Shown in pieces: positions 247 through 53,145 of a stretch of 64,000 nucleotides of DNA. Each line of letters begins with the position of its first letter. The stretch's first letter is position 1. Location of the stretch: assembly GCA_038659295.1 (NCBI GenBank), contig JASNGC010000002.1, positions 1 to 64,000 on the forward strand, read 5' to 3'. Made by a program: the position numbers and the translations under genes. The notes below the pieces were generated by a model. That model was not told the origin of the DNA and did not search any database. It worked only from the letters and a program-made list of their open reading frames with translations. The stretch comes from Enterocytospora artemiae (lineage: Eukaryota; Microsporidia).

Positions 247-319
247 TCACTCCATCTCGAAAATCATTTCATGTCTTATTCCATCACCACCTTTCCTCAT
301 TTACTCTCTTCAACACCGT

Positions 320-5180: not shown

Positions 5181-5189
5181 AAACTTCTC

Positions 5190-6320: not shown

Positions 6321-6713
6321 CGTGGCCCACCACCGTCCTGATCTCTGCAATTAAATCTTCTGCCTGTGAATCAATATTTCGACCTTTTAATTCAAGATAT
6401 TACTTCCCCAGTCCGTAACAGATTCTTAACCACCTTGGGTAAATTTATTTGATATGTCGATCTCCCTGAAATATAAATGTAATTTCCTGGCTCAATACTC
6501 CACAATATAACATACTATAAGTTTCATGTGTTTTACCTATACATCACATCTTCCAAATATACCCTGATGTGCGTCTGCATACTCCTACTCTGGTATGCAC
6601 CTTTATTTCATCCATCAATGAACCCAGAGCTATTTTCCTCCCCATAACTAGACTACTTTTGCCAATTAGCTCTTTTCGGCCACACATATATTATTCAATG
6701 TTCCATTCCCCAA

Positions 6714-7292: not shown

Positions 7293-7492
7293 GATTATCC
7301 CATTAATAAAGTTTGGTACCACCTTTTAATCGATTATATCAATGATTTAAAATATCTGGTCTGGATATCGATCATTCCCACAATTAAAGAACCAATGAAT
7401 ACATAACACCATTAATAAATTCATTACCACACCAACATATCTTTATTCACTACAGCTATACACACCAGCATAGCACGTGCCCTCCCCGATCT
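7293..7492. other. Spacer between membrane-protein gene and minisatellite
   Basis: It holds the AATAAA-type signal downstream of the 6714 gene and more ATTAATAAA fragments near 7410. Nothing else is recognised. Confidence 0.4.
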
Positions 7493-7996
7493 ACCACACC
7501 AACATATACACACACCACACCAACATATACACACATTTTATATATACTACCACACCAACATATATACACATTTTATATATACTACAACACCAACATATAC
7601 ACACATTTTATATATACTATACAACATATACACACATTTTATATATACTACCACACCAACATATACTACATATACACACATTTTATATATACTAACCAAC
7701 ATATACACACATTTTATATATACTACCACACCAACATATACTACATATACACACATTTTATATATACTACCACACCAACATATACTACATATACACACAT
7801 TTTATATATACTACCACACCAACATATACACACATTTTATATATACTACCACACCAACATATACACACATTTTATATATACTACCACACCAACATATACT
7901 ACATATACACACATTTTATATATACTACCACACCAACATATACTACATATACACACATTTTATATATACTACCACACCAACATATACTACATACAC
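7493..7996. repeat. Minisatellite flanking the SSU rRNA 3' side
   Basis: More than ten tandem units built from CCACACCAACATATAC, an optional TACATATAC insert and ACACATTTTATATATACTA. Unit length is roughly 35-45 bases and varies by presence of the insert. Long open frames on both strands here are products of the repeat, not genes. The array stops about 45 bases before the SSU rRNA 3' end. Confidence 0.9.
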
Positions 7997-8039
7997 ACAC
8001 ATCCATGCATCCCACGACACATCACCTCACAAAATCCGT

Positions 8040-9317: not shown

Positions 9318-9719
9318 TCCTGTCATCTCCCCCGTGGCCTATCCCAATCCTGCAAATCCGTGGCAATCCATTGCCCACATCACACTCTTGCCTCTATCCA
9401 CAGACCCACACGCATTTCCGCCTCGCCAAAATGCCTGTGCACACGGGTTTCCCCACGCTCGTACCCCCCTGCCGCGCATGTCCATTGCTGGGCCATGTGT
9501 CGCGAGGCGCACAGAATGTCGCACAATGTCATAGCATGGTACAATGTCATGCTAATGCACATATCAGCCTGCACAATATCATGCCAATGCACATACCACA
9601 ATATCCTGCACACACCACCACACAATATCATGCACAACATCACTACCCACCACGACCCGCTTCCCCACAAAAAGGCGCAGGCCTGCCTGAAACACTCGTA
9701 ATGTATACTCGCTTCGCAC
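9318..9719. other. Spacer between LSU and SSU rRNA genes
   Basis: About 400 bases, GC-richer than the subtelomere. It carries short imperfect repeats around CACAATGTCAT / CACAATATCATGC and CCAATGCACAT (9510-9640). On the transcribed (minus) strand it follows the LSU 3' end and precedes the SSU 5' end. No 5S rRNA or tRNA is recognised. Confidence 0.6.
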
Positions 9720-9902
9720 AGCAGCCCCCTTACGTGCGTCGTCTCCGCACCCCCGTGTCCCCAAGTCCCCATTCTGGCTTAGAGGCTTTCAGCCATTACA
9801 GGCTGGATGTAGCTGCGCCCCCGCCTTAACAGACGAGCGCCCGACCAGTGATCCAGACCAGAACTTCCTCTCGTACTACTCTGGCCTGCTCTCAGACACC
9901 TG

Positions 9903-9957
<55 letters not shown>

Positions 9958-10060
9958 GTTGGTGGGTGAACAATCCAACACTAGGTGATTTCTGCTTCAC
10001 CATGCTAGGAAGAGCCGACATCGAAGAATCAAAAAGCGGCGTCGATACGATCTCTCGGCC

Positions 10061-10093
<33 letters not shown>

Positions 10094-10372
10094 CGTCACT
10101 TCTGCACCTAACCGTTGCAAAAGATCTCTAGGCCCCTGTTTCCAGTCATCAATACGTGCGTCTGCACCTATGTCAAGCTCGCTTTTGCCCTTATGCTCCA
10201 CGAGTGGTTTCCATCCCCTCTAAGCGAACCTTTGGACGTCTGCGTTACTTTGTAGCAGTCGTGCCGCCCCAGCCAAACTCCCCATCAGGCAACCAACCGT
10301 CTAGTCACGGGCGCCAGTGGTCTCACACAGTAACCCACCTCGCTACGACACCCAGACTAGCCAATCTGCCTC

Positions 10373-10409
<37 letters not shown>

Positions 10410-10481
10410 GCATATCCCAAGCCCGTTCCCTTGGCTGTAGGTTCGCAAAGCAGTAGGTAGGGACAGTGGGAATCTCGTTGC

Positions 10482-10559
<78 letters not shown>

Positions 10560-12165
10560 AAGTGCGTACCTAAAATTACTTCCTTAACGTCCCAAGCACT
10601 GGGCAGAATTCACTTTGCATCCACACAAAGCTATGTTTTTATTAAACAGTCAGATTCCCCTTGTAAGCCCAGTTCTAGCATGCTAGAGCCAATAATTATC
10701 CCTAGGTTTTTCATCCATTTTGCCGATTTCCCTTACCTACCTTTCCTTGTGAATCGGGCTCCTAACCCCTGAGCCCTGATGCGGTTCGGTACGGCTGGCG
10801 GCCCTCTTTTTCCACGGGCAAGTCCGTCTGCGTCTCCGTATGACTCTCGGCACACCTCCGCGCGGTACAGCAAATTCTCACTCCGCGCTCCCTTGCCGTC
10901 ATCCCTGTTTCGCAACCTCGGCCGCCACCATGCAAATTTCTATGCATCTCCCTTTCGCTTAGGTCCGCATCACCTCCTTCTATCCAAAGGACGAACCCGT
11001 CTCAACATTCACTTCGTAAAGATGCTACTACTTCCAAGATCTGCTCCTAATGTCGTTCCATCAGCGGTCGCCCGCGCACTTCCCAACAACAATAGTGCCC
11101 GCCTACTACTCACAGAGTCGAGGGCCTCACACCGCTGATCAGCGCCATCCATTTTATGCCGTCGCAAATTCGGTAGGTACGTTGCAACACGTTTCTTAGC
11201 GGATGCCAACCTCCATGGCCACCGCCCTACTGTCTGGATTTGCCTACCGCATTTATGGGTTCTCTGCTCAGCCTTTGGCTGTTTATCCCTCTGTCAGGTT
11301 CATACCTTCTTGCAGACCAAGCTTACCTCGGTCTGCCCACTGATGCGTCCTAGGCCCCAGCGCTAGTACACACTTATTACGCTGCCACAGCTTCGGAGTT
11401 TGTTGAAATTTTCCACATCCTCTCTACACCATGTCCCTAGTTTCCCGCATCGCTGTCCTGAGAGACATTTCGGCTGGAACCAGCTACCAGGTAGTTCGAT
11501 TGGTCTTTCGCCCCTTTCAGTAGCTCATGTCATCGAGTTGAACATCAGAATGACTCAGATCCTCCATCAGAATTTTTCCTGACTTCAATCAAACCGCTGA
11601 AAGTTCACTACCTTTCGGGTCTTACCCTCCCAACTATCAAATCGCTTCCGGGCCCGCACTTCACATGCTTCTCCTCGCTGGGAATGTAATCTCCTTGGTC
11701 CGTGTTTCAATACGGGTCCGAGTCTCTCGGCTTACCTCCTTGTACTTTCACTATTTCACTCCCTTACCGGGACTTTTTCACACTTCGCTCGCGCTACTTC
11801 TCCGCTATCGGTCACCGACTATATTTAGACTTGGATGCTGTTACCACCCCTTCACACTGCACTACCAAGCAGCACTACTCTCTCCCTCTCCGCGCTCCAA
11901 GGACTATCACCCCCTCCGGTCGGCCTTTCCATGCCCGTCTCTCTGCGCTCTGCTACAACGGGGAGCACGCCCCCTTACAATCGGGTCTTCTCCATGTTCA
12001 ATCGCCTCTACTACTGGAATCTCCGTTGATTTCTTCTCCTATCCTTAATAATATGCTTAAGTTCAGGATGTTGTCCTGCACAACGTGCACAATTAGAATC
12101 TTATTGTCGTGTCCTTCACGTTCGTCATCGCTATCGGTACCTATCGATCCCGTACAAGGAATAAC
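9720..12165 (-). rRNA. Large-subunit rRNA with fused 5.8S-like 5' domain
   Basis: On the minus strand the 5' part carries AGCGATGACGAACGTGAAGG (about 12106-12125), the 5.8S core. It runs straight into GCATATTATTAAGGATAGG (about 12035-12055), the 5' LSU core, without an ITS2; this fusion is a microsporidian hallmark. Near the 3' end are ACCGTCGTGAGACAGGTTAG (about 9918-9938) and the sarcin-ricin loop AGTACGAGAGGA (about 9868-9879). Both outer ends are estimates. The length of about 2.45 kb fits microsporidian LSU. The order relative to the SSU (LSU upstream) is reversed from the common arrangement. Confidence 0.9.
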
Positions 12166-12490
12166 GCAATTGTATCATGTATCAATCGTCATGCACTTGC
12201 GCACACCACAACAAACAATACCAATATCTCACATGCAGGGCTTCCCCCACACGTCCCTACCCACCCTCCCCCACGTGCGCTAAATTAACCCATATACTGC
12301 ATAACACACACACAATACTACATGTATACAACATACACACAACACACACAATCCTAGTACAGAATATCCTATTAGTATTTCGCATTCAATACGTTCTGCT
12401 CTTTCTTAACTCCTCAATCATTTGAGCACTTCATTATAATGGCTACATCAACTATATTTTCTCACTTATGAGCCATATTCAAAAATTAAT
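12166..12490. other. Sequence upstream of the LSU rRNA
   Basis: ACACA/CATACACA-rich sequence (12290-12350) lying 5' of the LSU on the transcribed strand, so any rRNA promoter should be here. No SSU sequence is present on this side. No gene is seen. Confidence 0.45.
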
Positions 12491-12651
12491 CATCTTCATA
12501 CTATCCGTTAAATCATCTTCATACTATCCGTTAAATCATCTTCACATTATCCGTTAAATCATCTTCATACTATCCGTTAAATCATCTTCACATTATCCGT
12601 TAAATCATCTTCATACTATCCGTTAAATCATCTTCATATTATCCGTTAAAT
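12491..12651. repeat. 23-bp tandem repeat, seven copies
   Basis: Unit TCATCTTCATACTATCCGTTAAA, with alternating variants (CATACTATCC versus CACATTATCC). It lies next to the decayed LRR gene on the minus strand. A 23-base unit shifts frame each copy, so it is not a protein repeat. Confidence 0.9.
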
Positions 12652-12779
12652 TTCTATCCTTCAACGTTCTCTGTAACCCCACTGTGCCACTTCAAATTCC
12701 AAACTATTCAAGTCTGCCTTACCAAGTAAATCAACTACAGGTGATACCTCCTTATTCCTAGCAATTCAAATCCTCACCT

Positions 12780-13456
12780 TTAATGTCCATATGGTACATA
12801 TTTTAATATTTCACCAGCCATGTCATTATTACTAAACCCTGCTAAATCAACTAATTCCAATCTATATACCTCTTTAGATACCTCTTTGGACACCTCTTCT
12901 CCCCAATACTCTTCCAAACCACTACTTTTAGTTTACACTCTACAAACACATCAAATATACTATACCATATATATAATGCATTCTTTGGTACAAATTGTGA
13001 GAACATCTTCTGTGTCCTTCCATCTCTTAACTCTGCTGTGCCTAGTATTGCTTTGTAATTTCATTTGAGTATTCTACTTTTTTTACCATCACTATGTTCA
13101 AACAAGTATCCCAGTACTTCTATTTTCTCTTCGTTGTTGTTGATCATTCTATTGTACACATTTGTGAAGAAACCGTCGGGTATGGTAAGGTTAAATCTCT
13201 CATCACAGAGCATCAGATACTTCATGGTCAATGCAATAGGATGTGGTGGTGCTGCATTCTCATATCCACTGAATGTAAGTTTAGTATCCGAGACAGAGTG
13301 CATTGCAGAATTTCCACTACTAATTTTTAGCTCCATCTTGACCTCTCCCAGCTCTCCCGGGTTAATTGTATTTCCAAAGGTAAGTGGTGTATCCCCAATC
13401 TCTTCTGTCGTCCTTTGTAAATCCTCTAATTGATTTGATTCCACATTTAACTTCAC
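12780..13456 (-). pseudogene. Decayed 3' part of a secreted LRR-family gene
   Basis: The minus-strand frame of 131 codons has no ATG. Its end reads KIEVLGYLFEH, matching KIELLTYLFEH in the intact LRR protein at 23382-25301. Just downstream, in a shifted frame, come LEEYWGEEVSK and EILKYVPYG, matching LKEYWGNEISK and EVLKYISYD of the same protein. The homology is therefore continuous but frameshifted. It probably belongs to the same original gene as the frame at 13821-14795, split by stops and the 21-bp tandem repeat between them. Confidence 0.7.
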
Positions 13457-13613
13457 AATTACGATGTTTTAGCCTATCAATCAATTCCCTAAACTTATTT
13501 AATATTCCTCCAAAACCCCTCTAAGCTTGTATCTGCTGGAGATACTTCCGTAGCCATTACAATCACATTCATCATACTTATCATTCCTCATCTCACCTCA
13601 TTCTTTACCAACC

Positions 13614-13737
13614 CTTCTTATACACACTCATCACCTTCTTATATACACTCATCACCTTCTTATACACACTCATCACCTTCTTATACACACTCATCACCTT
13701 CTTATACACACTCATCACCTTCTTATACACACTCATC
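13614..13737. repeat. 21-bp tandem repeat, six copies
   Basis: Unit CTTCTTATACACACTCATCAC; the second copy is a variant and the last is partial. On the minus strand a 21-base unit keeps frame and would encode VYKKVMS-like repeats, so it may have expanded inside the coding sequence of the LRR-family gene before or during its decay. Confidence 0.9.
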
Positions 13738-13820
13738 TATCAAATATTCCCCTTCATCCCTAGGCGTATACCCTCCTAAACCTCGTACTACCCTAGACCA
13801 TTCCTTTCTTCTGTCTGCCG

Positions 13821-14795
13821 TCATTGTGAATTCTCTATTCCAACATTTCTACAGAATTTCTTCAACGGTAAACTTTCTTCCAATCCCAGGTGTTCTAATG
13901 AATAGTGCTGTCCTTCCATATCCCAGAATAAGCAGTTGAAAAGATGAAGTAGTGTTATTTCTGCACAATCCGTGAATTTTTTGGTTTCATCAAATGTATT
14001 ATCTTTTCTTATGTATATTGGAACTGGTGTATTCACTCTGGAATATGGAAATATGTTAATAATCCTATAAAATTCACTGAATGTTTCTGTGAAATGATCA
14101 CTCATACCATATTCGTCTATTTCGTATGATTTATCCTCAATTTTCTCTAATATTTTATCGAGATACAATCCCAACTCTTCCTCGGAATCTAGTACTTTGA
14201 CCATAAACCCATGGATCAAAAGAAGCTTAAGTTCTTTCTCCTTCCCCTTGAACAATTCTGATTTGGATTCCATCCCGGTATTGTATATTATTCGATTAAC
14301 GGTATATTTGATTTTGTCTTGTTTAGACTCAGACAACCTGGCTACATTTGTTTCACTTCCTGTCAGCATTCTGACAAATACATCTGCCATCACTTCTATG
14401 CCTTTGTTACATCTATCTTTTTTGGCTTTTTCCTCAGTGATCTTGGAGAAATAGTGATACCCAAAATTATTCATCATATTTCTAAAAGGACACAATATGC
14501 CTGCTGGGGATGGGAATAGATCTATCATAAGACTAACAAAAGGATCATCGCTTTTATCTTCTCCAAAGTCTCTTCTGCCACTTTCATACGTAACTTTAAT
14601 TTCTGGATTATACCTTCGTAAGTTGGGTCCACAGTTTCTCAACCATAAATATCCAAACATTGGATTGAGAATTGTTTTTCTCATACTTTCATATTTTTCC
14701 ATGCCAATTACCTTGGCTATCTGGTCCATTGATATTTCCGAAAGCACTTGATCCAGAAACAACAAACTGTAGAATGGCTGATAGCGGTATCTCAT
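13821..14795 (-). CDS. Secreted protein, N-terminal part of LRR-like family
   Basis: 324 residues starting MRYRYQPFYSLLFLDQVLS, a signal-peptide-like sequence clearly related to the start of the LRR protein at 25301 (MKYTQQLIYGLLFLHQVTS). Both ATGs follow a GTATCC/GTACCC element. The C-terminal part has a Cys-Asp motif followed by an aliphatic helix (DCAEITLLHLFNCLFWD, about 277-293). From memory, this resembles a motif found ahead of the repeats in some microsporidian LRR proteins. No LRRs are in this frame; a decayed LRR-family segment lies downstream on the same strand. It is either the surviving 5' piece of a broken longer gene or a short family member. Function is unknown; export to the host is an inference. 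Confidence 0.5.
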   Translation of the reverse strand: MRYRYQPFYSLLFLDQVLSEISMDQIAKVIGMEKYESMRKTILNPMFGYLWLRNCGPNLRRYNPEIKVTYESGRRDFGEDKSDDPFVSLMIDLFPSPAGILCPFRNMMNNFGYHYFSKITEEKAKKDRCNKGIEVMADVFVRMLTGSETNVARLSESKQDKIKYTVNRIIYNTGMESKSELFKGKEKELKLLLIHGFMVKVLDSEEELGLYLDKILEKIEDKSYEIDEYGMSDHFTETFSEFYRIINIFPYSRVNTPVPIYIRKDNTFDETKKFTDCAEITLLHLFNCLFWDMEGQHYSLEHLGLEESLPLKKFCRNVGIENSQ

Positions 14796-17006: not shown

Positions 17007-17828
17007 ATTAGAAACGACTTACAGTAGACAGTTAGATTCTGGTTGGCCATCAGAACACAAGGTCATCTCTGGATAAATTTCTATTTTGATAAGAGTCTTA
17101 TTCTGAAAATGATTGGTTTACATGCATTACCCAGTCCATTCTCCCTGTGTCACCTGTGGTTGTGGATTGTTGAAAATCAGCTGCTTCATAGAATTCGTCA
17201 GTGGTGAATCCTCATTTAGCTTTAGGTGTTCTAGAGCCTTTCTCCCATATTCCAGAACAGGCAGTTCACAGATGGAAAGTCCCCTCCAGCACAGCCCGAG
17301 AATGTCTGCTTTGTATTCAAGCCATCACCACCTCTTGTGCATGGTGGGTCTGTGTCTGTTCTGCCAGTCAGTTTGCGATTTTGCCGTATGTTGCTAATTG
17401 GAAAATCAATTTGCAGTACGAAATATCTGTTTTGCTAGGGTCTTTTAATTGATTAATTAAAAATGCCATTAACAATAATTCAAAGTGTCTCGTCAAAGAT
17501 AGTTTGCTGATTCATTGGTGTTTCCAACACATCAATTTTCCTGTGAGAATCAGCACTAAAATTTGTAGCTTAAATATTTTAGAAAAACCGGCCCCATGAA
17601 TATGTTGGCAGGGTATCTGATTGCTGCATGTATCTTGTGTCTCGCCGAGAGTAGTACTGGGGGGATTGTGGATGTGCTGCACCCTTCTGACTACACATTG
17701 GCTGTGTGCCCAGATAAACCTGCATCACAGGCTGGAGCAATATACGATGATCCATCACTCATCAACCCAATTCTAGAATCTATTGATTATGAAGGTACCT
17801 TCAATGAAAATAGAGAAGTTCTATCTGA
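17007..17828 (+). repeat. Inverted repeat, left arm (promoter plus signal-peptide module)
   Basis: These 822 bases are the reverse complement of 21854-22675. In the parts I compared there is one difference (A at 17531, opposite the base at 22151). The arm contains about 590 bases of upstream sequence, the GGCCCC start element and the first 77 codons of the gene at 17596. Homology stops sharply inside both genes after the codon for Ser77. Positions mirror around a sum of 39682. Confidence 0.95.
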
Positions 17829-19596
17829 ATTTTTATTTCCAGACCCTCAAGATATGAATCTCAATTCCACTAATATAACCATCTCTATAAATGGACCAGA
17901 CAATGTTGGTAAAACCTTACAAACACTGTTCTTACCAGATTCTTTTCAAATTTGTTCTGGGATTTATGATTATGATGGCCAAATGAAAGCATTGGATAAG
18001 GAAAACAATCTGAGGCATTGGTGGTTCGAAACTGCCAGTAATGAAGAATTTGTTTCAAGTATAATGCGTGCTGTTAAAAACCGCTGGTCTACAATCCCGT
18101 CAAAGCATTTTGTGGTATTTGATAGGGGAGCAGTAATGTTTGAGGCCGTTTGTATTGCTAGAATTGCATTTAAAGATCAATGTGACCTAAAAAAAGCTGA
18201 ACAAACATACGAGAATATCAAAAAACAATTGGGCATTTCAATTCCCAGAGAAGATATCCGAATATTATTGAAACATGGCAAAAACCTAAAGGAAAGCGTG
18301 GAAATTACTCTGAATCGGGAAGATAAGTATGATGATTCGTATAAAAAATACCAGGAGTTGTTTCAACAGCAACTAGCCAGCCAGGAGTCTGACAAGGTTT
18401 ATACTAACACCATTAATGTTACAAGCATGTCTGTTATCCAAGTTCAAAATGAAATTCGATCAATAGTTAATCAGTATACGAACTCAAAACTTTTAAAGCC
18501 AATGTTTGAACATGTAACTGCTATTATAGCATTTGGAGGCCTTTCTGAAGCTGGGAAGAGTTGTTTGGCTGAAGATATTTGCAGAAAACTGGATACAAGA
18601 GGTATTAAATCTTCTCGCTTAAAAATTGGTTACTTTCTGGAGCAATATCCGGATGTTTACCAACTAACTCCGAATAAACAAGCTGAATTTCTGATTAAAC
18701 AGCTTGATAGGTACCTACAATGTCATTATTGGCTTAGAGTTATAACCATCGAAAGCTGTCACAGATTAGAAAGTACACAACAATTACAAAAATTCCTGGG
18801 TAAGCTTCTCCAGATAGTTTATGTGGATGCATCCTTAGAAACACGAAAGAGACGTTCTTGTACAGATATAGATGAGTTAGTTGTTAAAGACATAACTAAA
18901 ATATCCCGAGGAGCAGATAGAATCAAGACAGAAACTGATTGTTTTGTTGTTTATAATGAGAAAAACACGGTGGATGAATGTTCAAACCTTATTTATGACA
19001 AGTTAATTCAAAAATATGAAGCCATATCTCTACAAGAACTTCTCCGTAACAGATATTCTGGAAAGATTAGCTTGTTTTCCCACCAATTTGTTTTGAGTGT
19101 TGGTTCTGTACTAATCCATAAATCACAAAGAAGAATTTGTCTCATACATCAACTAGATGGTAAACAGGAATGGTTGTTACCTAAGGGACGTAAGGATATT
19201 GATGAGACCTTACATGAGTGTGCATTACGTGAAACCTATGAAGAGACGGGTTTTTATTGTTCACTGATGCCTCTCAACATGGAAACTAGAGCTACTCCAT
19301 CAGGTAATGCACATCATCCTGATGTCTCGAGGAAACTGAATGCCAGTACAGAACCTTTTATGATTTATCTGCATAAAGTTGGGGATTCAGTACCTAATCA
19401 TAAGATTGTCTTTTGGTATGTGACTCAAGTGGATGAGTATAAACCAAGAAGAGATAATACCCAAATGCCAAATGAGAATTTTGAAGCTAGGTTAGTTTCA
19501 CTTGATGAAGCTTGTGATCTTTTGAGTTTTGAGGAAGATAGGTTGCTTGTGCAGGAAGTTTTCAAGTTATTTGAGGATACCTACAAAGATAATTAA
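17596..19596 (+). CDS. Secreted kinase-kinase-Nudix fusion protein
   Basis: 666 residues. Residues 1-18 (MNMLAGYLIAACILCLAE) form a signal peptide. Residues 1-77 are identical to the start of the facing gene at 22086. Domain 1 (about 93-270) resembles a thymidylate-kinase-type P-loop enzyme, with GPDNVGKT at 100-107 and FDRG at 175-178. Domain 2 (about 305-475) is a second P-loop kinase-like unit: GGLSEAGKS at 314-322 and a late SRGAD motif near 437-441, of adenylate- or dephospho-CoA-kinase-like type. Domain 3 (about 495-660) is a Nudix hydrolase; the box G531, E537, R545-E546 and E549-E550-x-G552 is complete. The ATG follows CCGGCCCC. A role in processing nucleotides outside the parasite cell is inferred from the signal peptide. 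The enzyme body looks bacterial-like and may be transferred. Confidence 0.75.
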   Translation: MNMLAGYLIAACILCLAESSTGGIVDVLHPSDYTLAVCPDKPASQAGAIYDDPSLINPILESIDYEGTFNENREVLSEFLFPDPQDMNLNSTNITISINGPDNVGKTLQTLFLPDSFQICSGIYDYDGQMKALDKENNLRHWWFETASNEEFVSSIMRAVKNRWSTIPSKHFVVFDRGAVMFEAVCIARIAFKDQCDLKKAEQTYENIKKQLGISIPREDIRILLKHGKNLKESVEITLNREDKYDDSYKKYQELFQQQLASQESDKVYTNTINVTSMSVIQVQNEIRSIVNQYTNSKLLKPMFEHVTAIIAFGGLSEAGKSCLAEDICRKLDTRGIKSSRLKIGYFLEQYPDVYQLTPNKQAEFLIKQLDRYLQCHYWLRVITIESCHRLESTQQLQKFLGKLLQIVYVDASLETRKRRSCTDIDELVVKDITKISRGADRIKTETDCFVVYNEKNTVDECSNLIYDKLIQKYEAISLQELLRNRYSGKISLFSHQFVLSVGSVLIHKSQRRICLIHQLDGKQEWLLPKGRKDIDETLHECALRETYEETGFYCSLMPLNMETRATPSGNAHHPDVSRKLNASTEPFMIYLHKVGDSVPNHKIVFWYVTQVDEYKPRRDNTQMPNENFEARLVSLDEACDLLSFEEDRLLVQEVFKLFEDTYKDN

Positions 19597-19806: not shown

Positions 19807-22086
19807 TTATTGAAGTAATACTTTTACGATATCATCAAGATCATTAATACTTCTTATCGAGGTTAAAATTACGCCTAAGGCTAAATTACCAAAAAATACA
19901 TCCGATCTCTTAGAAAAATTCCTGGTAAGAAGGGAACAACAAAATAATGCTTGCCCAAAGGTATTAACCCAATTATCGCTCAGTTGGAATTCCTCACAAT
20001 TTTTAACAAAATCTAGGAATGGAAGTAGAAGATATCGTTTCTTTATTTCAAATATTGAAGAACTAATCAAACTTTTTGGTAGTGAAAGTTCTATTTCAAT
20101 TGTATTATCCTTGGATGTCAAATCCACCCTTATCATATGTCTGTCAAAAAGTTCTTCGTTGGATGTCACCAAATCAGAATAAAATAAATTAAAAAAGATG
20201 TCATTATAAAAGGGTTTGGCTAAATCTAGGATAGGAGAATGAAATCCAGCCACTTCATAATCAATATGTAGATACCTATAAGTCTCATTTTTCTGTTTCT
20301 CTTTCCCTACCATAACATTCGCTGAATGGCCATCCCCCATACCACAAATCACCATTTGGTTTTGAAAATTGGAAGGGTGCAACATTTGAGATGCCTTATT
20401 CATAATTTGTGTTAAATTTCCGTAGTTTCTTCCATTTATCAACAAGTCCTTAGATTTCAAATCTTGGAGTGTTAATTTTTCGCCTAGATAACTAATACCA
20501 TTTCGATAAAACTCGTCAAAGCGTCCATTATTCATTAAACGATCATAGAAAAATCGATGAATTCCCGGTGTAGATTCTTCTTTTTCCATTTTTGCAGAAG
20601 TACAAAATGCTTGAAGTAAATCTTCACATCTCTGAAGTTCCACAGTTAAAATGACAGGGTCCAATGATTGATGACCTTCGAATTCTTGTTTTACACATTC
20701 CAATCTTAAGTCAGATAACAATGTTCCATCAAAAAATGGATAGAAAACTATACCTTTTTTCTGATCAACCATTAGAGGAACTTGTATAAAAGGATAGTAT
20801 TGTGAAACTAATCTGCAACCTTCTAATTCCTCAGATATAAATCTGGTTATTTTCCAAAATATTTTAAGATTGATTTTACAAGATCCACTTTGCGAGTTTG
20901 ATGAAAAATCTGTATTGTAGTGTTGGAACAAATTTAAAATAGTGCTATCCACACTTTGAAGTGTCTGTGTTTTTAGTCCTTGTTTCTTCCTTACCAGACT
21001 AACTTCTGGCTGTTTACCCCAGAAACAACATTGGTGACGAATCAAATCTTTCCTACATTCACAATCCTGTTTGATTTTTAGATCAGAATAATATCTTTTA
21101 AATCTATTTTCTAGGTCTTTACGAAAAAAGTCTGGAAATTTGTTAATATTTTTTAAAACTAGCATAAACTTCTCTTGACTTAGTGATGCTGTGTGGAGCC
21201 TTTGGTATTTTGAGAATAAACTCTTAGTTATACATTCGCCAGTTAAAGACCCATCGTCATAAACCCAGGACCCTGTCATCAGTAAATCAGTGGTAGCCCC
21301 AAAAATTGCAGCAGAGATACCATGGTTTTTACAGGAGTCAGTCAGGAATATATCCATATCATGCAAAATCACCAAGTTATTGTCTAGCCGAGTTGCTTGT
21401 TGGATTCGAACCTGGTTAATAATGTCGTTAATTTGATATTCTGCAACTCTTACTTCCTTGAATGACAGAAGATTAATAAAAGAGGGTTGATCTTCTTGAA
21501 GGATTTTAGTTAAATAGTCCACAGCTAATATCTTTGTTCCTTTTTTAATATTTTCACGTGTCCGGCCAGCGAAACGAACACCATGAAAAGCTTCGAATAA
21601 ATTTGATGTAGGTAAAGGTACTCTCAATTCTGGATATTCTTCATATTTTATGCCAAGGAGATTACATAACTCTTGTCGATGTTGATTGACAAGAGCTACG
21701 ATATCATTTTTTTGTTTAACAAGTATTATTCCATCCCAGTCTTTGGAGTTTTCTAATTTTCCCAATTTGTGTTTGTATAACATACTTCCTCCAAAAAGTA
21801 CCCCCACAATGTTGAGTTTTTTCAGGTCACTTGTTAAATTAATGTAGTTATAATCAGATAGAACTTCTCTATTTTCATTGAAGGTACCTTCATAATCAAT
21901 AGATTCTAGAATTGGGTTGATGAGTGATGGATCATCGTATATTGCTCCAGCCTGTGATGCAGGTTTATCTGGGCACACAGCCAATGTGTAGTCAGAAGGG
22001 TGCAGCACATCCACAATCCCCCCAGTACTACTCTCGGCGAGACACAAGATACATGCAGCAATCAGATACCCTGCCAACATATTCAT
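19807..22086 (-). CDS. Secreted nucleotidyltransferase- and phosphotransferase-like protein
   Basis: 759 residues. Residues 1-77, including the signal peptide, are the module shared with 17596. The next region (about 85-215) has a nucleotidyltransferase-like pattern: GGS at 99-101 and D116-W-D118. The C-terminal half (about 430-740) resembles an aminoglycoside-phosphotransferase/kinase fold, with GDGHSAN at 584-590 as a Brenner-type catalytic loop and HIDYE at 607-611 as the metal-binding motif. The middle is Cys-rich around 342-355 (CEC, CC). The substrate is unknown. It faces the kinase-Nudix gene, so the pair may act together. Family calls rest on motifs only; other nucleotidyltransferase or kinase clans are possible. 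Confidence 0.6.
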   Translation of the reverse strand: MNMLAGYLIAACILCLAESSTGGIVDVLHPSDYTLAVCPDKPASQAGAIYDDPSLINPILESIDYEGTFNENREVLSDYNYINLTSDLKKLNIVGVLFGGSMLYKHKLGKLENSKDWDGIILVKQKNDIVALVNQHRQELCNLLGIKYEEYPELRVPLPTSNLFEAFHGVRFAGRTRENIKKGTKILAVDYLTKILQEDQPSFINLLSFKEVRVAEYQINDIINQVRIQQATRLDNNLVILHDMDIFLTDSCKNHGISAAIFGATTDLLMTGSWVYDDGSLTGECITKSLFSKYQRLHTASLSQEKFMLVLKNINKFPDFFRKDLENRFKRYYSDLKIKQDCECRKDLIRHQCCFWGKQPEVSLVRKKQGLKTQTLQSVDSTILNLFQHYNTDFSSNSQSGSCKINLKIFWKITRFISEELEGCRLVSQYYPFIQVPLMVDQKKGIVFYPFFDGTLLSDLRLECVKQEFEGHQSLDPVILTVELQRCEDLLQAFCTSAKMEKEESTPGIHRFFYDRLMNNGRFDEFYRNGISYLGEKLTLQDLKSKDLLINGRNYGNLTQIMNKASQMLHPSNFQNQMVICGMGDGHSANVMVGKEKQKNETYRYLHIDYEVAGFHSPILDLAKPFYNDIFFNLFYSDLVTSNEELFDRHMIRVDLTSKDNTIEIELSLPKSLISSSIFEIKKRYLLLPFLDFVKNCEEFQLSDNWVNTFGQALFCCSLLTRNFSKRSDVFFGNLALGVILTSIRSINDLDDIVKVLLQ

Positions 22087-22675
22087 GGGGCCGGTTTTTC
22101 TAAAATATTTAAGCTACAAATTTTAGTGCTGATTCTCACAGGAAAATTGAGGTGTTGGAAACACCAATGAATCAGCAAACTATCTTTGACGAGACACTTT
22201 GAATTATTGTTAATGGCATTTTTAATTAATCAATTAAAAGACCCTAGCAAAACAGATATTTCGTACTGCAAATTGATTTTCCAATTAGCAACATACGGCA
22301 AAATCGCAAACTGACTGGCAGAACAGACACAGACCCACCATGCACAAGAGGTGGTGATGGCTTGAATACAAAGCAGACATTCTCGGGCTGTGCTGGAGGG
22401 GACTTTCCATCTGTGAACTGCCTGTTCTGGAATATGGGAGAAAGGCTCTAGAACACCTAAAGCTAAATGAGGATTCACCACTGACGAATTCTATGAAGCA
22501 GCTGATTTTCAACAATCCACAACCACAGGTGACACAGGGAGAATGGACTGGGTAATGCATGTAAACCAATCATTTTCAGAATAAGACTCTTATCAAAATA
22601 GAAATTTATCCAGAGATGACCTTGTGTTCTGATGGCCAACCAGAATCTAACTGTCTACTGTAAGTCGTTTCTAAT
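21854..22675 (-). repeat. Inverted repeat, right arm (promoter plus signal-peptide module)
   Basis: Mirror copy of 17007-17828. It supplies about 590 upstream bases and the first 77 codons to the minus-strand gene starting at 22086. The spacer between arms is 4025 bases. Because both genes begin in the arms and point inward, recombination between the arms would flip the spacer without breaking either frame. Confidence 0.95.
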
Positions 22676-26079: not shown

Positions 26080-26553
26080 TTATTCAAGCATAAAAAGATT
26101 ATTTCTATAGTTTTTAGAGCGATTTCTTTTATTTATAAACCAATTATTAACTTGCTTTAATGTAATAGAACACACATCTACTAATCTAGACTTTTCTTCA
26201 TCTGAGGGATATTTTTGCCTGGTAAAACTAGCCTCTAAAATTTTAATTATTTGTTTTGAAAATCTTTTTGTCTTTTTATTTTTGGGAAATGAATAATAAG
26301 AATCTTGAAAAATGATAAAATTATCCATTAAATTATTAATCATTGAGATAAATTGCTCTTTTGATTGCAATATCTTATCAGCCAGATGATTCTTTACACT
26401 TAAAGAGATCATTGGTATAAAATTTTTATTATAATAGGTTAAATCCTTTTTACTTTTATGAACTTCAGATAGAATTCTACTGATTATTTGAGCATATAAA
26501 TGTTTTAATTCAGCTATTTTCTTTATTTTTGGATTATTTGGTGGTATATTCAT
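26080..26553 (-). CDS. Homeodomain transcription factor
   Basis: 157 residues from the ATG at 26553. A longer frame starting with TTG at 26625 is rejected because TTTTTGTCCTTAT, the local start element, sits directly before this ATG. The homeodomain is at about residues 93-147. Helix 3 carries VNNWFINKRNR, with the invariant W138, F139, N141 and R143. The spacing and sequence resemble the divergent, TALE/HD1-like class reported from microsporidia and from fungal mating-type loci. The N-terminal part is helical and basic, with no other domain. It probably binds DNA in the nucleus; targets are unknown. A 28-base near-palindrome lies about 500 bases upstream. Confidence 0.75.
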   Translation of the reverse strand: MNIPPNNPKIKKIAELKHLYAQIISRILSEVHKSKKDLTYYNKNFIPMISLSVKNHLADKILQSKEQFISMINNLMDNFIIFQDSYYSFPKNKKTKRFSKQIIKILEASFTRQKYPSDEEKSRLVDVCSITLKQVNNWFINKRNRSKNYRNNLFMLE

Positions 26554-46825: not shown

Positions 46826-47493
46826 CTAACTAATAAAATCACAGAATATATATAGTCAATAAAGTTACAGATATGTTTTAATATGCTAAATGGTGTTAAA
46901 TCTTGGAGATTCATTTGATCATAGACTTAAATGTCAATCTTTATACTAACCTAATTCGTTTTAATTATGCAATCTTGTAATAATCCACACGTCCTTGATT
47001 TGAATATATTCTCTAACATCATTACATAATCAACTATTATTAAGACTTTGGTGAGTATAATTTTCACATGGATATTAAAGCAATACTATATCAAATCATC
47101 ATTTCTAACAAAAGAACAATGAATTGTGTTGATTTTTGAAGCTTACGGCTTAAAACCATACTTTCACTGTAGAACATACCATAAAGTTTATGATATCGAT
47201 ATATTATTACAAGGTTACCTGTGAAAACATATACTTTTACCAGTTAATTAAGCAGGGGATTCAAGGTTTAAGAATAAACATTTGGTAAATGAATGTATTG
47301 CAATTAATATTTGTAGTATTATGTGACAAACAACAGTTTTCATTACTATTAGTATACTTTCTTTGACTTAATTTATGAGAATTTAAATATAGAAAGAACT
47401 TATTTAATAAATATGAATACAAAATTTTGGACCAAAATTAATTAACCAATTACGGTCATTATAATATAGGAATATTTTTGTTCTACTCCCATA
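46826..47493. other. AT-rich intergenic region upstream of the folate block
   Basis: 668 bases. No gene, tRNA or repeat is recognised. It ends in TTTTTGTTCTACTCCCATA, the start element of the CADD-like gene. Confidence 0.5.
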
Positions 47494-48180
47494 ATGAGGT
47501 TTATAGATGATCTCAATGACGAGTTAGAAAAATTGTTTTTGCTGAAGCATCCATTTTATGAAGCATGGACGGAGGGAACCATACCAATAGAAATTTTAAG
47601 GTTGTATGGACAAGAGTACTCTCACCATGTGGCTGCGTTTCCAAGATACATCAGCCAAATTCATGCATTGTGTGATGATATTGAATGCAGGCAAGTCCTA
47701 CTCAATAACTTGATTGAAGAGGAGAAAGGAGAAAAGAATCATCCTGAGCTGTGGATGCAGTTCATTGATGGAATGGGTGGATCACGAGATTTCAGTAGAG
47801 AGGCACAGGTAGAAGAATCAAGGCAATTGGTTGATAAATATTATGACTTGGTGAAGACTGATTATGCAACAGGACTTGGAGCTTTGTACGCTTATGAGAG
47901 ACAAACATCAGAGGTATCTAAATCGAAGATGAATGGGCTAATGGAGCATTATGGAATCAAAGACTCTAGAACCTTAGAGTTTTTTGCAGTTCATTCCGAA
48001 GTTGATATTTGGCATACAGAAGAGCTTATAGGTCTGCTGAACAAACTTGATGAAAATTCTCAAAAACAAGCTTTTAAAGGGGCTATTGAGGGAGCAAAGT
48101 TATTATGGGGATTTCTTGATGGAATGGAGAGGCAGAGATTATCATTAGGTAAGGCTATTAATTTGGATCTATCTAAATAA
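47494..48180 (+). CDS. CADD-family protein, probable self-sacrificing pABA synthase
   Basis: 228 residues, TenA/PqqC-like haem-oxygenase fold, single domain. Its sequence is clearly of the CADD type: KHPFYEAWTEG, EYSHHVAAFPRYISQIHALCDD, LIEEEKGEKNHPELW, GLGALYAYERQ and FAVHSEVDIWHTEE. The dimetal ligands expected for CADD are all in place (E76, H83, E135, H167, D171, H174). So are the tyrosine thought to become pABA (Y22), a second active-site tyrosine (Y38) and the lysine proposed as amino donor (K145). In Chlamydia CADD replaces PabABC for 4-aminobenzoate. Here it sits beside FolE, FolC and a FolB-HPPK-DHPS fusion, which supports the same job. A thiaminase-II role is less likely. Bacterial origin is inferred. 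Confidence 0.82.
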   Translation: MRFIDDLNDELEKLFLLKHPFYEAWTEGTIPIEILRLYGQEYSHHVAAFPRYISQIHALCDDIECRQVLLNNLIEEEKGEKNHPELWMQFIDGMGGSRDFSREAQVEESRQLVDKYYDLVKTDYATGLGALYAYERQTSEVSKSKMNGLMEHYGIKDSRTLEFFAVHSEVDIWHTEELIGLLNKLDENSQKQAFKGAIEGAKLLWGFLDGMERQRLSLGKAINLDLSK

Positions 48181-48800
48181 AATTGTAGTGCAATCAATAT
48201 GCTTTGAAATCATCTAATTTAAACAATTGTGTTACTCGAAATACGGATTATCCACATAGATGTTGATACATACCATTCTGTTAATTAGTAATTCTGAGTA
48301 ATAGATTCTCTTAACTCGTTATTATGTTATTTCTATCCATTTAATATTCTTACCTCTATATGTATTACCTTCACAACAACCATAATTCATAATTATAACT
48401 AGTTTAAGCTATTATCTGAATTAAAATTTCAAAGGTTCATTTGCTATAGTCTAATGAGTCATTATAACTAGTATTTTTGTATCTGAAAAGTATATCATTT
48501 TTATCCATTAATTTTCCTTCAATTTTGTATTAAAAACATTTGAATGAAAATCAACATTTAAGGTATTTTTGGTAATATAATTGTTATCAATTTAGCCTTT
48601 CATTGTATCAGTATATTTGTCACTTCTCTAACAATTTTTAAAAACATGAAGCCAGTTAATTATACATAAGATTTCTACAATTTATGAGAATGTTCTTTTG
48701 GCTTCAATGATACCTCAGTAAAGTGTTGGAACAAACACTAATTTTTTAAATCAGTATTTCATTCACGTGACTAAAATTTTAATTTTAGAATATCCTTTAA
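48181..48800. other. AT-rich intergenic region
   Basis: 620 bases between the CADD-like gene and GTP cyclohydrolase I. No gene is seen. Because the gap is large and AT-rich, the two genes are probably separate transcripts rather than an operon. Confidence 0.5.
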
Positions 48801-49358
48801 ATGGTAAATGAAGAAAAAATAGTAAAAGCTATTAAAATGATAATAGAGGCAGTAGAAGAAGATCCAAACAGAGAAGGACTCTTGGAAACCCCAAGTAAAA
48901 TAGCAAGATTCTATAAAGAGGTATTTTCTGGAATGGGACAAAATGCCAAAAATCATTTAAGTAGAGTATTCACCGTAGAAAATAATGATTTGGTGGTAGA
49001 ACAAAATATAACTTTTTATTCTATGTGTGAACATCATTTCTTACCTTTCTATGGAAAAGCCCACATAGCTTATATTCCAAATGGAAAAGTTGTTGGGTTA
49101 TCTAAGTTAGTTAGAACAGTTGAAGTTTATTCCAGGAAACCTCAACTCCAAGAGAGACTTACATCCGAAATTAGTGCAGCTATAATGAAGTATCTAGATG
49201 CACAAGGAGTCATGGTCATAATGGAGGCGGAGCATATGTGTATGATTATGAGGGGTGTTGGGAATTCAGGAACTAAGACAACGACAGTTTCTTACAAAGG
49301 AAAATTCGTGGAAGATGGCGGTTTAAGAAATGAGATATTTAATATGATAAAAAATTGA
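48801..49358 (+). CDS. folE: GTP cyclohydrolase I
   Basis: 185 residues, the length of a minimal FolE1. It converts GTP to 7,8-dihydroneopterin triphosphate, the first step to the pterin of folate. Conserved blocks: [18 protein letters not shown] (21-38), [18 protein letters not shown] with zinc ligand C76 and H79, [23 protein letters not shown] (99-121), and [18 protein letters not shown] with zinc ligand C147. All catalytic positions I can check are present. The start follows AGAATATCCTTTAA. It lies in the folate block between the CADD-like gene and FolC. Confidence 0.95.
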
Positions 49359-49480
49359 ATATGTTTGTGTCTATATTATGTATTAAGCCGTTTGTGGATA
49401 GAACAATGTATAGGTAGTACCTTTATCAGAATCAGTTATGATGAATGTTTTTAATATAATTTGTGATGAAATATCATTTG

Positions 49481-50818
49481 TTATTTCAAGTTAGATCTCC
49501 ATGGATCAACATCGAGAAGTTGATATACATTAGAAATTAAATATAATGATCCAAAGATTATGTACATCTTTTTGCCTGCGTTTCTATTTTGTATATCTTC
49601 TAATATTTCTTCCAGTGATTTTGTTTCTGAATGTATCAAAAGCTTTATATCAGATTGTAATTTAGTAGAATTATTAGATTCAATCCATGGCATGTTACTT
49701 GGAGTTGTAAATCTGGTTAAAATAATACTCTGCTTTATTTTCAAATTATTTCTTAATAAAATACTAAGCATTAGTTCGGAATTTTTGCCCTTAGTAATTC
49801 CTGCAACCCAAACGATTTCCGTGATGTTGTCCTCAATAGAGTAATTTTCAACATAGTTTTTCAGTTGTAATATACCAGCTATGTTATGTGCTCCATCTAC
49901 TAACAAGTAGTTGTAGATCCAGGTTAATCGACCAGGCCATATTACATTCTTACATCCTTGTTCGATATGAATTAAACAAATAGATTCAAATAATTTTCTT
50001 ATGTTGTCATTGGGTTGTTTTGTAGATAGATTATTTTTCAAGTACATTATGGCATGAATAGCTAGAGATGAGTTCTTGATTTGAAACTCTCCATGCAATG
50101 ATAATTCATATTCGATTATTTGGTTCTGGACTGTGCAAGTATAGCGTTTATTTCTTTCCCTGGAAATATCAACTAACATTAATGGGATATGATTTTTGTC
50201 ACAGTATTGCTTAATTATTAATTCGATGTTCTTACCTTTCATTATTGTATTACATCTAGAAATGGCATCATCTTGTTTAATAGCCATTATTGGTATTTTA
50301 GGTTTTCCTATCCCTAACTTATTAATCAGGATATTTTCCATAGATGGTCCAATATGCTCTTCATGATCAAATGAAACTGATGTGACCAGTGCGATCAACA
50401 GATTATCACTAAATATATTTGTTCCATCATGCAACCCACCCATTCCTACCTCTACAATACAAAGACCACAACAAAACTGTTTAAAGATACATATTGAGGC
50501 TACAACTTCTTTCTCAAAAATACTCAACTTGATATCCCACCGGCTGCAGTTAGTTTCGATCTTTGCAATCATTTGGTGATACAAATCTGAAGATATCGGT
50601 AAACAATTAATCTGTATGCCATCACTAGGGCAAATCAATGAAGGTGAGTTAAATGTACCTATATTTATTTTGTTATTATTTTGAGACAGAATAGTGGCAA
50701 TGATTCTAGAAACAGATCCCTTTCCATTCGTTCCAGTAATATGTATGATGGGTAAGTCATTCTGAGGATTATCAATCATTCCAAGATACTTTTTTATTCT
50801 TCCAGTGCCAAACTCCAT
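49481..50818 (-). CDS. folC: Folylpolyglutamate / dihydrofolate synthase
   Basis: 445 residues. The ATP-binding loop HITGTNGKGSV is at 26-36. Mur-ligase-type blocks follow: IVEVGMGGLHDGTN, VTSVSFDHEEHIG, WPGRLTWIYNYLLVDGAHNIAGI and IVWVAGITKGKN. The DHFS/FPGS hallmark DGAHN is intact. It adds glutamate to dihydropteroate and/or folates. The start is put at 50818, where GATTGTCCTTATTA precedes the ATG, not at the TTG four codons upstream. It is divergent from the FolB-HPPK-DHPS gene with only 149 bases between, suggesting a shared regulatory region. Confidence 0.9.
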   Translation of the reverse strand: MEFGTGRIKKYLGMIDNPQNDLPIIHITGTNGKGSVSRIIATILSQNNNKINIGTFNSPSLICPSDGIQINCLPISSDLYHQMIAKIETNCSRWDIKLSIFEKEVVASICIFKQFCCGLCIVEVGMGGLHDGTNIFSDNLLIALVTSVSFDHEEHIGPSMENILINKLGIGKPKIPIMAIKQDDAISRCNTIMKGKNIELIIKQYCDKNHIPLMLVDISRERNKRYTCTVQNQIIEYELSLHGEFQIKNSSLAIHAIMYLKNNLSTKQPNDNIRKLFESICLIHIEQGCKNVIWPGRLTWIYNYLLVDGAHNIAGILQLKNYVENYSIEDNITEIVWVAGITKGKNSELMLSILLRNNLKIKQSIILTRFTTPSNMPWIESNNSTKLQSDIKLLIHSETKSLEEILEDIQNRNAGKKMYIIFGSLYLISNVYQLLDVDPWRSNLK

Positions 50819-50967
50819 TAATAAGGACAATCTATAGGAGCTATAAATATGACTACCATTGAATTTTTATTAATACAGAAACTATAAATTAATTATAAAT
50901 TAAAAAATGTTTTTCGAATTTGGTATATTATTTTTTTAATTTATATTTTCTGAAATTTGGACCCTTT
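50819..50967. promoter_or_regulatory. Shared divergent upstream region of folC and FOL1
   Basis: 149 AT-rich bases. The minus-facing end carries GATTGTCCTTATTA before folC and the plus-facing end carries GAAATTTGGACCCTTT before the ATG at 50968. No other motif stands out. Confidence 0.5.
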
Positions 50968-53145
50968 ATGAACAAATTGGAACAAATTCAATTGTCAGAG
51001 TTGCAAATGGAGTCTCCAGTTACATTTTCTGATAGTGATCACAAGGAAAAAAAGCTGATTAGCTTGACCATGAAGCTCGAAGTTGATATGTGTAAGGCAT
51101 TTCATACTGATGACTTAGCGGACACAATCTGTTTTAAAGAATCTTCTAGTAAGCTAAAGGAATATACTAAAAGCTTGGAAACAAGAATTTATATTACTGA
51201 ATATGCAAGAAATGCTATTCAAATATTACATAACATTGCACAGAAAGATATTCCGGTAGAGTTAACTATTAAAATGCCAGGAAGTTGCAGTATTAATAGA
51301 AACATTGCCTATAGCATTCAATATAGAAACACTGTTTTTATAGAAAAAATGATTATCAAAGATCTAGAATGCAAGGCAAAGGTTGGCTGTAGCGAATTAG
51401 AAAGATCACAGTTTCAAACAATTTTGATAGATTTAGAATTGAAATATCCGGACTCAAAAACGAGTTTCTTACACAGTTTTAATGTGTCGTCCATAGGCAT
51501 GGCAATAACTACATATGTCCAGAATACACATGTTGCCACAATAGAGTGCTTGACAAATAAAGTCCTGGAATTTATTGAAGAGAGATATTGTTTTACAGGG
51601 ATTTGCATATTTTTACAAAAGATATCGGCAATAGGGAAGTCTTTTAGTTCGGGGATCAGAATATCGAGGGATACAGTACACAGTAAGATGATTAATCAAA
51701 GATATTTGATGCTACCTAATAAAACGGATAGAAATAATGTAGTATATTTGTTGCTGGGATCCAATCTAGGAAATAGATTGGAAAATATTCATAAAGCCTT
51801 AGGGATATTGAAGCAAAATGCCTTAACCATAGTTAATACTTCATTTATGTATAACACGCGTTATATTGGATCAGGTTCTGACCAAGCACCTGATGTTTTA
51901 AACTGTGCCATAAAAGCAATAACATCCCTTGGTCCTAGGGATTTACTGAAAGCAGTAAAAGATATAGAAAGTGCAATGGATAGAATAAAATCCCAGGTGC
52001 CCGATAACAGGGTCATAGATATAGATATTTTATTGTATAACAATTTAGAGTTGACTGCAGAGGATATTACAATACCACATAAGAAAATGCATATGAGGGA
52101 ATTTGCTCTAAGACCTTTACTAGATATTAACCCATACTTTATACATCCAGTTTTTAAGGTATCTATGGTTGATTTATTAGGAAAATTGCTAATCAAAGAT
52201 ATTCCAACGATTCCTCGACATTTTGAGATAGAAGCACTGCCATTTGCAAATGTTGAGAGGGTAATTGGACTTGGAGAAACATTCTATAATTGGAAGTCCT
52301 GTGATACTTTGGTAATGGGTACATTAAACATTACACCTGATAGTTTTTCTGATGGTGGTTTATATTACAATAATGCTAGTAAGGCTGCAGAACATGCAAT
52401 TAATATGTCCCAAATGGGTGCTAATATTATAGATGTGGGAGGTGTATCTACTAGACCTGGTGCAGACCCAGTTTCTACAGATGAAGAATATAGGAGAGTG
52501 ATACAAGTTGTAGAAAAGATTGTAGAAAAAGATCCAACGATACTCTTGTCAATTGATACAACCAATTCTTATATAGCAGAAGAATGTCTTAAAAGGGGAG
52601 TTTGTATAATCAACGATGTTTCTGGTCTTTGTGATAACATCGATCTTTACAAAGTAGCTGCAAAATACAATGCTCCATTGATTGTGATGCATTCTAAAGG
52701 AACTCCAAAAACAATGAATGAGCTGAGTAAGTCTTATAAGAGCAAGAGCATGCTTTTGGATGTTTCTAAGGAGATGAATTTTATTCTAAGTAATGCATTG
52801 AGTGCAGGTGTTTACAGATGGAACATAATATTAGACCCTGGTGTTGGGTTTGCAAAGAATGCACTTCAAAGTATACATGTGCTCAAAAACTACAAGCAAT
52901 ATCATCCATTTTCTGAGTATCCATGTTTGGTGGGCCATTCAAGAAAAAGCTTTATTAAAGTGCTTGGAATTCTTCCTAGTGAAAAATTAGAATGCAATCA
53001 TGATGAAAGACTTTGGGGCACTTTGGCAATATCAGCTCTTTCGTCATATCATGATGCTTTTATCATAAGGGTTCATGATGTATGTGAGAATGCATTGGTA
53101 ATTAAACTGTCAAATGTTCTTAAAGATAATCCTTTAATGAAATAA
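50968..53145 (+). CDS. FOL1: Trifunctional folate synthesis protein (FolB-FolB-HPPK-DHPS)
   Basis: 725 residues from the ATG after GGACCCTTT (the TTG-start frame adds 16). Residues about 20-110 and 115-235 look like two tandem dihydroneopterin-aldolase (FolB) units, the second clearer (ILIDLELKYPD, IECLTNKVLEFIEERY). HPPK follows at about 258-420 with LLLGSNLGNR (G264 onward) and RVIDIDILLYNN, IPHKKMHMREFALRPL. DHPS occupies about 443-715 with MGTLNITPDSFSDGG (M450 onward), IIDVGGVSTRPGA, LSIDTTN, INDVSG, ILDPGVGFAK and GHSRKS (656-661), the pterin/pABA and sulfonamide-binding regions. The two-FolB architecture is that of fungal Fol1/Fas, so this piece looks fungal-type while the CADD neighbour looks bacterial. 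Confidence 0.92.
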   Translation: MNKLEQIQLSELQMESPVTFSDSDHKEKKLISLTMKLEVDMCKAFHTDDLADTICFKESSSKLKEYTKSLETRIYITEYARNAIQILHNIAQKDIPVELTIKMPGSCSINRNIAYSIQYRNTVFIEKMIIKDLECKAKVGCSELERSQFQTILIDLELKYPDSKTSFLHSFNVSSIGMAITTYVQNTHVATIECLTNKVLEFIEERYCFTGICIFLQKISAIGKSFSSGIRISRDTVHSKMINQRYLMLPNKTDRNNVVYLLLGSNLGNRLENIHKALGILKQNALTIVNTSFMYNTRYIGSGSDQAPDVLNCAIKAITSLGPRDLLKAVKDIESAMDRIKSQVPDNRVIDIDILLYNNLELTAEDITIPHKKMHMREFALRPLLDINPYFIHPVFKVSMVDLLGKLLIKDIPTIPRHFEIEALPFANVERVIGLGETFYNWKSCDTLVMGTLNITPDSFSDGGLYYNNASKAAEHAINMSQMGANIIDVGGVSTRPGADPVSTDEEYRRVIQVVEKIVEKDPTILLSIDTTNSYIAEECLKRGVCIINDVSGLCDNIDLYKVAAKYNAPLIVMHSKGTPKTMNELSKSYKSKSMLLDVSKEMNFILSNALSAGVYRWNIILDPGVGFAKNALQSIHVLKNYKQYHPFSEYPCLVGHSRKSFIKVLGILPSEKLECNHDERLWGTLAISALSSYHDAFIIRVHDVCENALVIKLSNVLKDNPLMK

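Follow-up and report, generated by a model that had tools for sequence, protein, structure and literature searches.

Where does a microsporidian that retains a dihydropteroate synthase (DHPS) obtain its p-aminobenzoate (pABA)? Animals do not make this compound and no chorismate synthase was found in the genome studied here, so that keeping the enzyme begs the question of a pABA source. The question was addressed in the first 64,000 nucleotides (64 kb) of contig JASNGC010000002.1 (contig C2) of the Enterocytospora artemiae assembly GCA_038659295.1, hereafter called the window; the whole genome comprises 3,015,070 bases in 5 contigs. In this window, a gene for a CADD-type protein lies next to genes for FolE, FolC and a FolB-FolK-FolP fusion (FolBKP), and it would answer the question with one gene. 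The locus is very probably a de novo folate gene cluster of the microsporidian, chorismate-free and of mixed origin, in which pABA comes from a one-shot, Rickettsiales-like enzyme. Our results support the observation of a CADD-type gene, made in an initial annotation of the window, as sound, and support the interpretation given there as the best one.

Four consecutive genes for folate synthesis

Four consecutive folate genes had been proposed at 47494-53145, and four intact open reading frames (ORFs) were indeed found there in a row. The first (47494-48180, + strand, 228 aa) was identified from profile TIGR04305, PDB matches and individual residues as a CADD-type self-sacrificing pABA synthase, a heme-oxygenase-like dimetal oxygenase. 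The second (48801-49358, + strand, 185 aa) encodes a Clostridia-like FolE, GTP cyclohydrolase I, which matched PF01227 (6.5e-72), NF006826 (256.4 bits against a cut-off of 162) and TIGR00063 (224.1 against 181.6) and contains CEHH and HMC motifs. The third (49481-50818, - strand, 445 aa from ATG) encodes FolC, dihydrofolate/folylpolyglutamate synthase. It matched TIGR01499 (9.8e-69; 232.6 bits against a cut-off of 162.65), displayed GTNGKG and DGAHN motifs, and had structures of folylpolyglutamate or dihydrofolate synthases as its PDB matches.

The fourth gene (50968-53145, + strand, 725 aa from ATG) starts divergently from FolC, with about 150 bp between them, and encodes FolBKP, a fusion of dihydroneopterin aldolase, HPPK and DHPS. 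The corresponding Pfam E-values were 3.8e-17 for FolB (PF02152), 2.3e-29 for HPPK (PF01288) and 2.1e-67 for DHPS (PF00809). The FolP part exceeded the cut-off of TIGR01496 (254.6 against 162.6 bits), as did the FolK part that of TIGR01498 (97.3 against 54.1). The FolB part scored over the cut-off of the domain model TIGR00526 (66 against 45.05) and under that of the stricter FolB model TIGR00525 (56.9 against 72.15). In these profile searches FolC began at a TTG upstream of its ATG (449 aa), and FolBKP was one codon longer. Motifs that we take to be typical of working FolE, FolC and DHPS were found in the window proteins.

Identity of the CADD-type protein

The product of the first gene had been assigned to the CADD type, and this assignment held: TIGR04305 was matched at 2e-78, with 262.9 bits against a cut-off of 200. 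At an E-value threshold of 0.001, four PDB entries were retrieved. The best three, 9pj4, 1rcw and 8va9, are 4-aminobenzoate synthase or CT610 (E-values of 1.3e-41 to 1.5e-39); 7twa (4-chloro-allylglycine synthase), in fourth and final place, was far weaker (2.9e-9). The match to the general family PF03070 (TENA/THI-4/PQQC; 2e-13, over the cut-off), and the name pyrroloquinoline-quinone synthase given to some relatives in certain sources, might instead point to a TenA-like thiaminase or a PqqC-type oxidase. The initial annotation had suggested weighing TIGR04305 against TenA and PqqC, and this comparison pointed to the CADD family, since the PqqC model reached 30.9 bits against a cut-off of 240. 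The PDB matches included no TenA or PqqC entry, with pABA synthases at 1.5e-39 or better, and the sacrificial Tyr and the Lys are both present. Such an identity is thus rejected, and we attach next to no probability to it.

The residues expected of a CADD-type synthase, Y22, K145 and the ligands E76, H83, E135, H167, D171 and H174, were all found at the positions predicted for them. In the alignment to 1RCW, which spans residues 1-210, Y22 corresponds to CADD Y27 and K145 to CADD K152, and the six ligands stand opposite identical residue types, which we take to be the metal ligands of CADD. A rule of three histidines and three carboxylates as metal ligands is given for CADD-type synthases in a published study (PMC11965152). 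The CADD homologues numbered 3836, and residue counts rest on the best 120, which were listed. Y22, E76, H83, E135, K145, H167 and D171 were kept in 120/120 of these relatives, and H174 in 119/120.

Host genome and position of the locus

The genome had been described as microsporidian-like, which agrees with the Rfam match SSU_rRNA_microsporidia at 8039-9317 (- strand); an LSU rRNA lies at 9667-12093 (- strand). Some window ORFs had no Pfam match. Others matched eukaryotic families: nucleoporin, Bms1/Tsr1, a class I Trp/Tyr-type tRNA synthetase, RIO kinase, CAP-Gly, YEATS, PCNA, a TruB/DKCLD/PUA protein (Cbf5-like) and Ulp1 protease. The trinucleotide CCC occurred within 20 bases 5' of the ATG in 15 of the 21 non-folate ORFs (starts 17596-63875), against 4.5% of background 20-mers, and is a local gene-start signal. 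The same 20-nt scan located this motif, common to most window genes, directly 5' of the CADD start codon (47488-47490, + strand) and 5' of FolBKP (50962-50964, + strand). FolE and FolC have CC only, as do 31% of background 20-mers. The codon usage of CADD (z = +0.01) did not deviate from that of the 21 non-folate window genes.

Rickettsiales-type bacteria and microsporidia share arthropod hosts. A rival reading is that CADD is Rickettsiales DNA foreign to the microsporidian, brought in by contamination (an endosymbiont in the same host would be one source) or by misassembly. Counted by eye, 28 of the 120 listed CADD matches bear an organism name, 27 from Rickettsiales and 1 from Legionellales. 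Moreover, the GC content of CADD (0.381) and its GC content at third codon positions (0.345) are the highest of 25 window ORFs, the next values being 0.367 and 0.319. Against this stand the eukaryotic genes that flank CADD on either side, its local codon usage and the CCC signal shared with its neighbours. Identity to the named Rickettsiales rows listed does not exceed 62%, and a sister sequence of CADD was found on a contig equal in size (9112 bp) to one carrying a microsporidian-type FolBKP. Given the microsporidian SSU rRNA, the eukaryotic neighbours, the codon usage and the CCC signal, contamination is unlikely, and we rate a foreign or misassembled locus as very improbable on these sequence features. 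Contamination or misassembly at 47-53 kb had been raised as an objection by the initial annotation. Codon usage, CCC, the neighbours and the apparent second organism make either of these unlikely.

Other sources of p-aminobenzoate and the rest of the pathway

A search of the genome for pabA/B/C homologues, also suggested beforehand, gave no PabB, PabC or free PabA/TrpG in the 5 contigs. The profiles for PabB/TrpE (PF00425) and chorismate synthase (PF01264) had 0 matches, with positive controls in 14/14 genomes each, and PabC (PF01063) likewise had 0 matches, with controls positive in 13/14. The sole match to the amidotransferase profile PF00117 was CTP synthase, judged from the ORF translation. 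Dihydrofolate reductase (DHFR), thymidylate synthase (TS) and serine hydroxymethyltransferase (SHMT) were detected by the same profile method, indicating that the method works on this genome. They are located elsewhere (on contig C4, at C2:536711 and on contig C1, respectively), so that, among the genes sought, the synthesis genes alone are clustered. The members of the de novo set that were sought, FolE, FolB, FolK, FolP, FolC and DHFR, are thus all encoded. The BT1 transporter had 0 matches in the genome, with controls positive in only 4/14, and the search for the reduced-folate carrier was uninformative, with 0 control genomes positive. Uptake of pABA or folate is possible.

Origins of the proteins and a probable second carrier

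Phylogenies had been proposed for all four proteins. Trees were obtained for CADD, FolBKP and FolE; the PDB matches of FolC do not settle its origin. The closest named CADD sequences among the 120 listed were those of Wolbachia, Rickettsia, Tisiphia and Fokinia, with 56-62% identity. A scan of genome contigs with six peptide patterns added 7 loci with 31-47% identity, 6 bacterial and 1 archaeal, the latter (L009) on a contig of a metagenome-assembled genome; these could serve as distant outgroups only. In a quick tree of 128 rows, window CADD, P0001 and P0002 grouped at 92. Several of the 7 scan loci formed very long branches in it; therefore all 7 were dropped from the careful tree of 53 rows, which also omits 68/120 listed matches (near-duplicates, mostly Wolbachia-type, and others). 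The careful tree, rooted by arbitrary choice on P0070/P0078/P0079, placed window CADD within the Rickettsiales-type set, where P0001 and P0002 are its sisters (support 84/91). These comparisons showed an ancestry of the Rickettsiales type for window CADD.

For FolE, 18 of the 120 listed matches (of 7988) were organism-named, by eye, and all were Haloimpatiens, Clostridium, Eubacterium or Sarcina. The highest identity among the named ones was 69%, to Haloimpatiens and Clostridium polyendosporum. In the tree of all 120, window FolE was sister of the metagenome row P0265 at 87. Since no listed row is named as eukaryotic, this tree shows only a placement among such rows.

The FolBKP tree contained 47/120 listed matches and the window protein; its three bacterial outgroup rows did not form one clade. 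Seven rows formed a clade (100/99) that left out the other fungal rows. One half held the window protein, the microsporidian Astathelohania contejeani (P0124) and P0121 (98/88), and the other P0122, P0123, P0125 and P0126. We infer from the tree that P0121, P0122, P0123, P0125 and P0126 are microsporidian. As a separate observation, the FolBKP of the chytrid Physocladia obscura (P0134) is listed with an extra PF01227 GTP cyclohydrolase I domain, a possible four-function fusion.

P0002, the second-best listed CADD match, and P0122, the second-best FolBKP match, each derive from a single 9112-bp contig within a common source. This was the only size common to any two listed match sets (distinct values: CADD 117, FolBKP 116, FolE 117), so a chance coincidence is unlikely, and the two genes probably occur together in a second microsporidian. 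If P0002 and P0122 share one contig, each half of the FolBKP clade has a CADD-bearing member. Identity to the window protein was 63.6% for P0002 (CADD) and 43.0% for P0122 (FolBKP). If P0002 and P0122 come from one organism, this difference would suggest that CADD was long retained under selection, after a single gain before the split. We consider it fairly probable that an intracellular eukaryote acquired a Rickettsiales-type CADD before two or more microsporidian lineages diverged and that, together with FolE of Clostridia type and FolBKP of fungal type, a chorismate-free de novo folate pathway was kept.

Proposed pathway and evidence against it

In the proposed pathway, the pterin half would be made from GTP by FolE and then by FolB and FolK, and the CADD-type protein would make pABA at its own expense. 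Its dimetal centre would activate O2, and a radical would be relayed over aromatic residues to Tyr22. The side chain of this residue would be cleaved off to give the pABA ring, with Lys145 as the predicted amine donor. FolP would join the two halves and FolC would add glutamate; DHFR, TS and SHMT, encoded elsewhere, would reduce and use the folate product. As no chorismate is required, a single acquired gene would replace the shikimate pathway and PabABC. The pABA-synthase activity of the protein, its expression and the importance of the supply to the parasite are all inferred from sequence.

According to PMC11965152, metal choice depends on Y141/Y170 in CADD and F148/F177 in NePabS, and the F148Y variant of NePabS is about equally active with Fe/Fe and Mn/Fe. 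Window CADD and all 120 listed relatives have Y134/F163 at these positions. This is the state of the variant, which predicts a permissive enzyme; by analogy, window CADD may work with Fe/Fe or Mn/Fe. Among the aromatic residues between the cluster and Tyr22, Y38, Y42 and Y134 are kept, F163 stands at the position of CADD Y170 and NePabS F177, and S43 replaces a Tyr.

Several observations weigh against this account, besides the high GC content of CADD. The sister grouping of window CADD with P0001/P0002 is not strongly supported, and the DHFR match, though over its cut-off, is incomplete (positions 4-129 of 159). Five further FolBKP contigs belong to the clade, among them the one of A. contejeani (26,781 bp); none has the length of a contig from the 120 listed CADD matches (of 3836), which makes CADD look patchy, and none of these matches is named A. 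contejeani. Nor was a 9112-bp contig present among the 120 listed of 7988 FolE matches. Finally, position 43 is Ser in window CADD and Tyr in 120/120 listed relatives, P0001 and P0002 included; in the 7 distant genome loci it is Tyr in 5, Phe in 1 and Gly in 1. The replacement of this Tyr, otherwise invariant in the listed set, makes an altered or lost activity possible. Chlamydia CADD is also reported to be active in host apoptosis (PMC11965152), so that a second role is conceivable for the window protein.

The last two points would fit a true CADD descendant that no longer makes pABA, having taken another role, for example on the host, or being in decay, with pABA coming from the host. We judge this improbable. 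Indeed, the eight catalytic residues are all retained, the reading frame is intact and the gene adjoins three others that use or process the product of CADD. In addition, between what are presumed to be the same two organisms, CADD has diverged less than FolBKP, and no hydrophobic N-terminus was seen in CADD by eye. Synthesis of pABA for the adjacent folate genes therefore remains the preferred function.

Comparison with known systems

As described in PMC11965152, the self-sacrificing reaction is established for NePabS as well as for CADD of Chlamydia trachomatis, and the relatives mentioned are all bacterial (Wolbachia, Rickettsia, Chloroflexi, Sphingomonas and Nitrosomonas). Window CADD resembles CADD/CT610 of C. 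trachomatis (1RCW, 8VA9) in family, length, the six ligands and the sacrificial Tyr and Lys. Both also belong to intracellular parasites and, according to that study for the Chlamydia gene, both are clustered with folate genes. Unlike the Chlamydia gene, the window gene belongs to a eukaryotic genome and has a FolBKP fusion nearby, and its product has F163 instead of Y170 and S43 instead of Tyr. NePabS (NE1434 of Nitrosomonas europaea) has the Tyr/Lys pair of a self-sacrificing pABA synthase as well. In contrast to window CADD, it has Phe at both metal-selecting positions, and its gene adjoins shmT outside any folate cluster (PMC11965152).

The listed CADD-type sequences from Wolbachia, Rickettsia, Tisiphia and Fokinia are the closest named ones and have the Y/F state of window CADD, but are bacterial, and S43 occurs in 0/120 listed matches. 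The A. contejeani FolBKP is the same fusion as that of the window, 43% identical to it and within the same three-row clade. Some Encephalitozoon species reportedly gained folate genes by transfer. Like the window, Encephalitozoon hellem has a folB-folK-folP fusion (PMC4224340); no CADD partner is mentioned in the passages of PMC4224340 that were covered. Among the best-ranked open-licence papers, no title or abstract opening describing a eukaryotic CADD was found, and the word "folate" was not found in the main-text passages covered of two recent microsporidian genome papers (PMC12558613, PMC12449221).

The case is thus that of a known bacterial enzyme family in the same use within a eukaryotic, apparently chorismate-free folate pathway. 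If this reading is true, self-sacrificing pABA synthesis reaches eukaryotes, and a very small eukaryotic genome houses a pathway that combines bacterial with fungal parts. To our knowledge, it would be the first case of a eukaryote relying on a stoichiometric, self-sacrificing enzyme to supply a vitamin. The parasite is then predicted to be independent of host pABA or folate and, through its DHPS, would be a candidate for sulfonamide sensitivity.

Other features of the window

The contig end 5' of the rRNA genes (positions 1-8000) displayed a strong C-over-G skew (to -0.69) and numerous AT-rich tandem repeats; Tandem Repeats Finder reported no telomere-type array in 1-14000. A homeodomain gene at 26080-26553 has a GC content of 0.232, markedly below that of its neighbours. 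An inverted repeat of 822 bp, 99.9% identical, is present at 17007-17828 and 21854-22675 and gives the opposed genes 17596-19596 (+ strand) and 19807-22086 (- strand) an identical upstream region. The first 77 or so codons of these two genes are alike and encode a hydrophobic N-terminus, after which they diverge: the former has a C-terminal NUDIX domain and the latter a weak EcKL match.

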